In this document: positions 25,374 through 35,945 of the stretch, piece by piece
How positions within the stretch are numbered: position 1 is the stretch's first letter
Layout of the letters: every line of letters begins with the position of its first letter
NCBI RefSeq assembly: GCF_900155545.1
Contig: NZ_LT732526.1
Span: 1,370,796-1,434,795 of the forward strand
Direction: 5' to 3'
From: Clostridium sp. Marseille-P2415
GTDB taxonomy: Bacteria; Bacillota; Clostridia; Lachnospirales; Lachnospiraceae
DNA length: 64,000 nt
Position numbers and translations under genes: made by a program
The notes under the pieces: generated by a model
What the model saw: the letters and a program-made list of their open reading frames with translations, nothing else
Database searches by the model: none
Told to the model about the DNA's origin: nothing

Positions 25374-25660
25374 AAATGCGCCTCCAGCCGTCTTAAAACG
25401 GCTATAGAGACGCAGGATATACCGCGTGGTACCACTCTATTTCATACAGTTCTGTATGCTCTCAACCGGATATGAGCACTCATATCCGCCCGTTGTAACG
25501 GTCGGGGTTCCGGCAATACCTACACAGAAACGTTCCTTTCCTTCAGTACGCTACTCAAAGGCCAGTTCAGCCGCCATCCCCAACCGGCTTTCACCAACCG
25601 CCGGCTCTCTGCATGCTTCAGACAGCTTACTACTCCTAATCACAGTATTTTTGCTAACTG
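25371..25660 (-). ncRNA. T-box leader, leucine (CUG specifier)
   Basis: Read on the minus strand. The leader has the stem I opening GGAGTAGTAA and GAGAGCCGGCGGTTGGTGAAAG. The specifier follows the pattern GAA-NNN-(purine)CC…GAG: GAA CTG GCCTTTGAG, placing CTG (Leu) at 25563-25565. The conserved T-box AGAGTGGTACCACGCGG lies near 25420-25437. The terminator pairs GCGTCTC…/…GAGGCGC around an inner GCCGT/ACGGC stem and ends in TTTTTT (25371-25376). Uncharged tRNA-Leu should favour the antiterminator and raise leuS expression. Confidence 0.92.
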
Positions 25661-29113: not shown

Positions 29114-30037
29114 TTATTGGAGTGACCTAGCTGCCTTAAGGGCTGTATCCAGTGCACTCATTATTGGTATCCCGATCCCGATGCCCGGCATCGCTTCCCG
29201 GACTCTCTCTTCCACCATATTGCGGATGATATCATTTTTAACCAGAACGCTGCCCCAGAGCCAGAGATTAAATTCGCCCGGCGGACTTTTTAGATCCATC
29301 TTGGCTGCGGTGTCCCGTATGAGTCCCCACAGGGCTTCCCCACATTCCCGGTGAATGCGGATGGCCTCATGGTCCCCTGAGTCTGCCGCCTGATATGCAA
29401 ACAGGGATAACCTGGCGATTTCAGATTTTTCCATGAGATTGGCATTGACAAAATCGTCCATCTTTTCCAAAGTATCAAGCCCCGTTGCTTTTACAATAAG
29501 AGGCGTGAGAATGGGACACTTGATTCGGCCGGACAATTCATCCGCTGCCGCTCTTAAGACTTTCAGCCCTAAGTCAAAAGCACTTCCCTCATCGCTTAAG
29601 ATATGGTTCCAGCCGCCGGTCCGGTATATATTTCCTTTTGTATCCCTTCCAAAGCATACGGAACCGGTTCCTGATATGACTACCAGGGATGGGGTCTCCG
29701 TTAAATGGAGAAACACTTCACAGTCATTTAATACCAGAAGCCTTTCATGAGGAAATCCCATCTCTTCAAAGCTGGACCTGCAATCATGCTCATCCGACGG
29801 AGAATCGATTCCGCTGGCTGCTACGCAGATTCCAAGGCAGCTGTCCGGATCCAGTTCCAGTTTCTTAAGGGCCGGGAGCACCAGCTCACGGTAACGCAGC
29901 CTGCTCTTTTCAGCTCCATCCGTATTGATGCTGCAGCCCGGTGCAGTAAATTCGCCAAGTACTGTCCCAGCCATATCACAGACTTTAAGCCGTCCGTTGG
30001 TTCCACCGATATCCAATCCCGCATAATATCCTTTCAT
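29114..30037 (-). CDS. BadF/BadG/BcrA/BcrD-type ATPase, probable N-acetylglucosamine kinase-like
   Basis: 307 aa from ATG 30037 with GGAGGACGGGAG upstream. It has the ASKHA fold: phosphate-1 motif GLDIGGTNGRLKV at the N-terminus, an Asp-containing ASGIDSP, the phosphate-2 loop VVISGTGSVCFGRD (~107-120), and the C-terminal LWGSVLVKN adenosine motif. Sugar kinases of this group phosphorylate N-acetylglucosamine or related sugars; others are benzoyl-CoA reductase activators, but the Cys residues of those activators are absent. The ATG overlaps the reverse transcriptase stop (ATGA), so the two are translationally coupled. Either a housekeeping kinase that lies downstream by chance, or part of the retron unit. 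Confidence 0.8.
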   Translation of the reverse strand: MKGYYAGLDIGGTNGRLKVCDMAGTVLGEFTAPGCSINTDGAEKSRLRYRELVLPALKKLELDPDSCLGICVAASGIDSPSDEHDCRSSFEEMGFPHERLLVLNDCEVFLHLTETPSLVVISGTGSVCFGRDTKGNIYRTGGWNHILSDEGSAFDLGLKVLRAAADELSGRIKCPILTPLIVKATGLDTLEKMDDFVNANLMEKSEIARLSLFAYQAADSGDHEAIRIHRECGEALWGLIRDTAAKMDLKSPPGEFNLWLWGSVLVKNDIIRNMVEERVREAMPGIGIGIPIMSALDTALKAARSLQ

Positions 30038-31051
30038 GAGACTCCCGTCCTCCTCACAGGTTTCATTTTCTCTGCTTTCCTCCCCAGTACAGCTAAGAGC
30101 TTCTCCTCCGCTTCCCGAAACCACCGGTCCTCAGTATTCACCAAAAGGACATAGCGTATTCTTCCCAAAAGAGAAAGAAGATACTGATTCTCCGGAATCA
30201 ATGCATTTTCCCCGCTTCTCTCCAGATGGGACTTTACCCCGTATTTCAGGCAGTAATAAACCTCCTGCCGCAGTTTCCTCCTGTAGTCTATGGAGACCTG
30301 CGGTTTTTCATTGACCACGATTCCCGTAACCGCCTGCCTTCCGTTGCGGTACAGGATCCTGGTCTTCTCTTCATTCAGTTCAAACCCCATGGCGTTCAAA
30401 AAACCGGAGGCTTTCCGGATAACCGGACCCGGGTTAAAATCACCGGAAAACGTCATATCATCGCAGTATCTGGTATAAGAGATCCCCTTATCCCCGCACC
30501 ATTTCTTCATATATTCATCAAAATGCTTCATAACCAGGTTAGAAATCGCCGGCGAAGCAGGAGAACCCTGAGGAAGAAAATCGCTGCAGCAGCATAAGGC
30601 AGTCAGCATGGTTCCTGCTGCCGGAGGAAAATACCGGGCGGGAAATGCGCTTTTAAGAACCATAGGAAATGAAATACTCCCGAAAAAATTTTATATCCAG
30701 CTTCACCACCACATTTTTTCCCGTATGGGCCCAGGCATTCGGTACCACCCCTGCGCCTTTATGGTAGGCCGTGGCGCAGCCGGAGACTGCATACCCGTCC
30801 AGGATGTGATGCAGGATATTCTTCTGTATTCTCATTAATATTTTATCCGGCACCAAAAGCCTGCGCTCTGTTCCGTCTCTCTTGGGAATACGGACAGTAC
30901 GATAATGGCGCTCCGTATGGTTGCTGACAGCATAAAGACATGCCATTACCTTTTCGTCCGGCCAGCTGGTATTCCCAAGAAGGCGGAAAGATAGCAGCAT
31001 GTCCCTGCAATGCTTTTGCGTACAGTATTTCCACAAATCTGTCTGATACAT
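30034..31051 (-). pseudogene. Retron-type reverse transcriptase, split by a frameshift
   Basis: Start ATG 31051 (MYQTDLWKYC) has GGAGG five bases upstream. The first frame (31051-30653) carries IPKRDGTERRLLVPDK, the retron-specific NAxxH motif (NAWAH) and the first catalytic Asp (VVKLDIK). At a T6 run (30683-30688) the frame shifts. In the +1 frame the protein continues as FFGSIS, then LPQGSPASPAISN, the catalytic YCDD (YTRYCDDMTFSG), and the retron VTG region (AVTGIVVNEK … YRRKL). The total span of 1018 nt lacks two bases of a full 339-aa gene, so a 2-nt deletion or 1-nt insertion explains it. Alternatives are a sequencing error, slippage rescue, or reinitiation at ATG 30663 (inside the 11-base overlap) giving a split enzyme. 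Confidence 0.85.
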
Positions 31052-31101
31052 CGGATCCTCCATACCAGTTTATCTTAAAATTCTTTATTTTTCCGCTTAA
31101 A

Positions 31102-31294
31102 AACAACAGAAGCAATACAAACATGATGCCGTAAGATGCGAAGATGTACAAGCTGCAGGCGTAAGCACATGCAATGTGCGGAAGTACCTCGCAGCAGATT
31201 ACGGCCTTTTCCCATACCATGATGCTCCCGGCAGCGACTCGCTGCCCGGCCGGATGCTATAATCTTTCCGGAAAATACTATTGCTTCTGCTGTT
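31102..31294 (-). ncRNA. Retron msr/msd non-coding RNA
   Basis: Read on the minus strand, directly upstream of the reverse transcriptase. The a1 segment (31279-31294, ending CAGAAGCAATA) pairs over 16 bp, with one G·U, with a2 (31102-31117, TATTGCTTCTG…). The base right after a1 is G (complement of 31278), where the branching guanosine is found in retron Ec86. An msr hairpin follows (GGCAGCG-AGT-CGCTGCC, 31230-31246). Then comes a long msd stem-loop whose base pairs are GCCGTAA/TTACGGC (31199-31205 with 31128-31134). Inner stems are TGCGA/TCGCA and GTAC/GTAC, and the tip is GCACAT-TGC-ATGTGC (31165-31179). The size of about 193 nt and the order a1-msr-msd-a2-RT fit known retrons. Confidence 0.8.
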
Positions 31295-35654: not shown

Positions 35655-35676
35655 ATTGATTAAATAAATCAAACCG

Positions 35677-35945
35677 TTGAAAAAGAGGAGTAAGCTTTCC
35701 TGGCAATATTTCAGAGAGCCGCCGTTGGTGCGAGTGCGGTATGGAGCTGACAGCTGAATGGACTTTTGAGGGCGGCCCTGAACCATTGTTTCAGTAGGGG
35801 CTGACGGAAACCACAACCGTTATTTTCCGTGGCATATATGTTAGTATATGAAAAGTGGGCTTTTACAAAGTCAATTTGAGTGGCACCGCGGATTGTATGA
35901 TTCGTCTCAAGTACGTTTTTTTTGCGTACCTGGGACCTTTTTTAT
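35677..35945 (+). ncRNA. T-box leader, tryptophan (UGG specifier)
   Basis: Stem I opens with AGAGGAGTAAG and GAGAGCCGCCGTTGGTGCGAG. The specifier reads GAA TGG ACTTTTGAG, giving UGG (Trp) at 35759-35761. The T-box core GAGTGGCACCGCGGA is at 35878-35892. The terminator pairs TCTCAAGTACG with CGTACCTGGGA (with G·U pairs) and ends in CTTTTTT (~35905-35943). It controls the ABC importer that starts at 36006. This leader is direct evidence that the transporter answers to tryptophan starvation. Confidence 0.93.

Follow-up and report, generated by a model that had tools for sequence, protein, structure and literature searches.

The window analysed here, a stretch of 64,000 nucleotides from Clostridium sp. 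Marseille-P2415, carries a stand-alone Ec107-like retron whose reverse transcriptase (RT) gene is frameshifted, and in the genus of its host the msDNA of such retrons appears to have been joined occasionally into the chromosome, leaving inserts of msd sequence only. This reading, taken as a whole, is given a probability of about three in four. The retron is real and its type is known; the interest lies in the msd inserts, which stand outside the window and were invisible to the original prediction, made from the window's letters.

The retron RNA occupies 31294–31102 on the minus strand and comprises, in order, a1, an msr hairpin, the msd and a2 (Table 1). The presumed branching G is base 31278, just after a1, and the A-G at the a1 end and branch position does not vary among 17 aligned RNAs (that of the window, those of the family loci L006–L010 and those of L013–L025 except L018 and L025, whose a1 could not be placed by eye). 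In this alignment a compensatory double change was present in at least one sequence at 31 of the 47 consensus pairs, among them most pairs of a1/a2 and pairs of the msr. The RNA segment folded with an energy of −76.4 kcal/mol (z = −3.9), which none of 200 shuffled sequences equalled. The 16-bp a1/a2 repeats, the G directly after a1, the msr hairpin and the long msd stem-loop of the original prediction were all recovered at the correct coordinates, and the check proposed for them, compensatory change in a1/a2 among relatives, came out in their favour. The upper limit of the msd in the window was placed by homology to a terminus common to three inserts in relatives, described below. When folded as DNA, the predicted msDNA strand gave z = −1.8, and 12 of 200 shuffles were as good. 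Neither the 72,556 plasmid records nor the 50,697 phage records searched contained a match to the retron RNA at E ≤ 0.1. An Rfam scan of the window returned no retron family at gathering score and two T-box leaders only (RF00230), one at 25403–25652 on the minus strand (129.7 bits), upstream of a leucyl-tRNA synthetase-like ORF, and one at 35668–35912 on the plus strand (125.5 bits).

Table 1. Features of the retron, with positions numbered along the window
Feature	Positions	Strand	Basis
a1 repeat	31279..31294	−	16 pairs with a2 (15 Watson–Crick, 1 G-U); covarying in relatives
msr hairpin, conserved GCGAGTCGC loop region	31227..31250	−	Sequence and position; conserved and covarying in 17 RNAs; motif also in Ec107
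msd, predicted template of a 98-nt cDNA	31118..31215	−	Putative limits
a2 repeat	31102..31117	−	Pairing with a1; covariation
RT upstream part, 136-aa frame, with NAWAH and DIK motif	30653..31063	−	PADLOC RT_Ec107-like, 2.6e-40; 41% identity to Ec107 RT over 108 aa
RT downstream part, 209-aa frame, with QGSP, YCDD and VTG	30034..30663	−	PADLOC RT_Ec107-like, 1.5e-89; Pfam RVT_1, 5e-11; 49% identity to Ec107 RT over 192 aa
NAWAH motif	30725-30739	−	RT upstream part
QGSP motif	30559-30570	−	RT downstream part
YCDD motif	30457-30468	−	RT downstream part
VTG motif	30322-30330	−	RT downstream part

RT_Ec107-like was the best PADLOC model for both parts of the RT (136.7 and 298.4 bits; the next models reached about 71 and 213), and identity to the Ec107 RT of E. 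coli was found over both (Table 1). Ec107 owes its name to a length of 107 nt. Compared by eye, its RNA shows the same order of elements as that of the window, with CAATA-G, a GGCGAGTCGC hairpin and a TATTGCC a2, and it is likewise intergenic and has no linked effector. In E. coli it lies between slmA and pyrE (L217, a record in which the RT is annotated); the description of it in PMC6868368 gives its RT a YCDD box, has the element replace a palindromic intergenic stretch of 34 bp and reports no features of a mobile element. On its RT and RNA sequence the window locus is thus an Ec107-like (Retron-Eco5) retron, a described type, of a Lacrimispora-group Lachnospiraceae bacterium. It differs from Ec107 in its host, in its broken RT frame and in the msd inserts of its genus. 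The possibility of an undescribed type, which the original prediction had raised, is not supported, given the likeness of RT and RNA to Ec107.

Thirty-five loci were found when genomes were scanned with the downstream part of the RT. In a tree of 46 rows this part fell within a Lacrimispora-group clade (100/98), grouping with retron RTs and standing well apart from the group II RT found in the window's genome; Ec107's own branch is left unfixed by the tree. The placement of the RT and the covariation of a1/a2 bear out the retron identity first proposed. A group II intron RT was ruled out by the family models and the tree, and a DGR RT by the family models. The second RT of the window's genome (G000:C9:2590304-2591011, L005), an ORF of 430 aa, looks like a group II intron RT. 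RTs from Flavobacterium, other Bacteroidota and one Desulfobacteraceae (L026–L047) are 37–46% identical to the downstream part and form a clade of their own in the tree.

Gene neighbourhoods were clustered for 14 loci (the window and L013–L025, L016 being 4.9 kb long in all), from ORFs that encode 90 aa or more and lie up to about 6 kb from the retron. The RT was the sole gene common to all 14. The window, L013, L014 and L015 have in common, as synteny of the genus, a block made up of aroF, tyrA, aroA and a nicotinamidase-like gene, and fusA with a CPBP protease is present in three of these four; an ABC-ATPase family occurs near the retron in L019, L022 and L025, and a few genes occur in pairs. 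In L. celerecrescens 152B the DAHP synthase gene beside the retron (L013, 4170-5230) was called as two ORFs, through either a break or an assembly error. A PADLOC scan of seven neighbour genes in the window matched EF-G weakly to LeoA and left six without a match. No linked effector was found within this range, and Pfam shows no further domain in either RT part; in this range, then, neither the linked effector gene nor the RT fusion of a tripartite anti-phage retron was seen. The original prediction was right that an effector is not evident, but this is no sign of a new type, since Ec107 is alike in this respect. Other retrons act as defence systems with effectors, according to PMC12548924 and PMC8989520, and the RT and RNA are intact across the genus, which points to a role under selection. 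It is a serious possibility that the locus is a retron of the anti-phage kind, with a toxic effector that has been lost or lies at another place in the genome and with the inserts as a side effect, though we hold the odds to be against it: outside the synteny block, and apart from the ABC-ATPase in three loci and the few pairs, the RT is the only gene among those of at least 90 aa that the surroundings of the 14 loci share.

The RT lies downstream of the RNA at 31063–30034 on the minus strand and is divided over two frames, the reading frame being lost at about 30660–30690, past the DIK motif. The NAxxH, QGSP, YCDD and VTG motifs listed in the original prediction are all present, but no single frame holds them all. 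Its reference to a 'repaired RT' implies that the break had been noticed; of its 'complete or recently complete retron', 'complete' fails for the window copy. All 11 other congeneric retrons have an open frame, and so do all 13 loci L013–L025; the two sets overlap by three (L013, L014 and L015 are the G402, G406 and G398 loci, identical over 1,400 bases). As all 11 congeneric copies are open while that of the window is frameshifted, the window copy is probably dead or misassembled, that is, either recently inactivated or carrying an assembly error. A sequencing or assembly error in an otherwise intact retron would fit the run of T that adjoins the break, the lack of further stops in both RT parts, the good preservation of the RNA and the open congeneric orthologs; it is nevertheless rather unlikely, as the genes beside the retron read through without comparable breaks and the contig is 4.2 Mb long.

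A 257-base RNA query found a second match in the genome of the window (C9:679824-679901, 92% identical), around which no a1, a2 or RT was seen. With an msd covariance model the retron was found in 12 of 25 genomes of the genus, five of the 12 having a second copy at E ≤ 0.01. The same 25 genomes were surveyed by BLAST with two msd queries (the window type and the G321 type) at E ≤ 1e-3, with retron loci excluded. This gave 24 extra msd places in eight of the 12 carriers (ten in G397, three each in G401 and G416, two each in G415, G321 and G418, and one each in G402 and G000) against one place in one of the 13 retron-less genomes (one-sided Fisher p = 0.003, an optimistic value as the genomes are related). 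Because G415 and G416, and likewise G321 and G418, share orthologous pieces, the distinct sites in carriers number about 22. Many pieces are short and 75–90% identical. Four carriers, G398, G404, G406 and G414, had no piece at E ≤ 1e-3; the G406 assembly is 67% complete. The single match in a retron-less genome, 43 bases at G405:C1:285064-285106 (L148, L299), is either the relic of a lost retron or due to chance. CRISPR spacers as the origin of the 30–42-nt pieces were ruled out by eye, since the flanks differ and there are no repeats.

In E. coli the Ec107 msd is present in 373 of 5,426 complete genomes, at one place in each, and no second msd place was found in the 5,426 at E ≤ 1. The retron element alone is thus not enough for insertion, and end-joining enzymes are one candidate for the extra factor. 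In a survey of 397 family genomes, weak beyond the genus and with two candidates scored per genome, second copies were seen only in G000 and G321.

The source of the pieces was examined with the whole retron locus (3.1 kb) as query in G397, G321 and G418, the best 40 of 46–60 candidates per genome being scored. Among the candidates so scored, 15 off-locus rows below E = 0.006 fell in the msr–msd stretch (query 1453-1601; 13 places), five fell at query 2888-2971, in a downstream gene with cell-wall-type repeats, and none fell in the RT or the leader in any of the three genomes. Two pieces are identical to the msd of their own host, that in G402 over 82 of 82 bases and that in G418 over 95 of 95, the latter ending one base from a2. 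Lineage was compared for 20 of the 24 places (four weaker places in G397 were left out), with two lineages set by hand: 20 of 20 inserts match best an msd of their own genus lineage. The host's own msd was best or tied for 13 of them, and the other seven, in G401, G415 and G416, fit the msd of another genome better, as older inserts would. Several inserts (L260, L263, L273 and L070) lie beside terminator-like hairpins, as judged by eye and without statistics.

One start base is common to pieces at three independent sites, namely in G397 C12, in G397 C11 and at the orthologous site of G321 and G418. A cDNA running from a2 to this shared terminus would measure 109 nt. At all three sites the kept end corresponds to the 3' end of the cDNA, and the a2 side is cut off. 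Pieces of the other half end at, or a few bases from, GGCATCAT, several bases short of a2, and pieces in G401, G415 and G416 keep the a2-side end without the other. Two matches extend into the msr, beyond the cDNA end deduced from the shared terminus: one is a piece of 57 nt in G397, and the other covers 52 bases in G418 and is not among the 24.

An empty site, at which the piece is absent from a relative, was found for six of 12 flank sets, and no target duplication was seen. About three of these sites are near base-exact (L182, L156 and L151), the other three showing further gaps or changes in the flanks; for five sets (L176, L186, L152, L154 and L183) no full-length empty ortholog was found, and L163 is ambiguous. 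At the site of the G397:C20 copy the region is too diverged in G418 and G321, and in G406 the flanks lie closer together, though not base-exactly. Both identical copies sit exactly where homology switches between regions of relatives. In G410 the two flanks of the G418 copy stand in inverted orientation with about 220 bases between them; those of the G402 copy correspond to two parts of the G321 chromosome that lie far from each other, the match of the right flank covering only 110–153 bases. From these flanks the identical copies look like filler at repaired junctions.

The mechanism that we propose would run as follows. Intact orthologs would prime on the G after a1 and copy the msd from the a2 side, stopping after about 109 nt, to give an msDNA that combines a bulged stem with terminal hairpins. 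Such msDNA, whole or broken within the hairpin region, would occasionally be joined into the chromosome as filler at breaks or rearrangement junctions, and the resulting inserts would hold msd sequence but no a1, a2 or RT, and would lack a target-site duplication. The making of msDNA, its entry (rather than that of RNA or duplex DNA) and the joining step are the inferred parts of this scheme. Were the RT instead to use a nicked chromosomal 3' end as primer on the msd RNA, by target-primed reverse transcription without a finished msDNA, the a2-side end would be kept, as it is in the pieces of G401, G415 and G416, and a reference title in PMC6868368 speaks of the msd repeats of Nannocystis as a possible retrotransposition event. 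We rank this true retrotransposition lower and consider it improbable, because the three sites with the common terminus show the reverse, keeping the cDNA 3' end and lacking the a2 side. More improbable still is the reverse origin, in which the retron drew its msd from an older REP-like or terminator-like repeat family of the genus, to which the scattered pieces would belong: the hairpins beside several pieces and the match in one retron-less genome would suit it, but the pieces are concentrated in carriers, follow the carrier's lineage in every case compared and in two cases show no difference from the msd of the host.

Capture of retron DNA has a precedent in Nannocystis exedens (Retron-Nex1/Ne160), for which a brief description in PMC6868368 (citing Lampson & Rice, 1997, and Lampson et al., 2002) gives repeats of both msr and msd that have no RT less than a kilobase away and that are attributed to possible retrotransposition. 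The genus studied here likewise has msDNA-like sequence in the chromosome away from the RT, a likeness in kind only: the Nannocystis repeats, as so described, are of msr and msd in a single myxobacterium, whereas the Lacrimispora-group pieces are mostly msd only, are spread over eight genomes of one Bacillota genus, have empty sites in relatives and share a common terminus. No report of chromosomal capture of retron DNA in Bacillota was found in the open literature searched, subscription papers lying mostly outside it, and within that literature such capture has been suggested only for the one myxobacterium.

Its apparent occurrence in eight genomes of one Bacillota genus, with empty sites and a sequence-defined end, makes the capture of retron DNA open to comparison and assay, and the insert termini give predicted msDNA ends for the Lacrimispora-group retron. 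One question on which the finding bears is whether retron DNA, a widely used donor in genome editing, is taken up by chromosomes in nature where there is no homology. Another is the role of effector-less retrons such as Ec107. As a long shot, the RT-DNA of stand-alone Ec107-like retrons may itself be the working product, serving in DNA break repair as a hairpin-ended single-stranded patch or splint at broken ends; the chromosomal inserts would then be a record of function rather than of accident, and the keeping of an intact RT without a linked effector would be explained.
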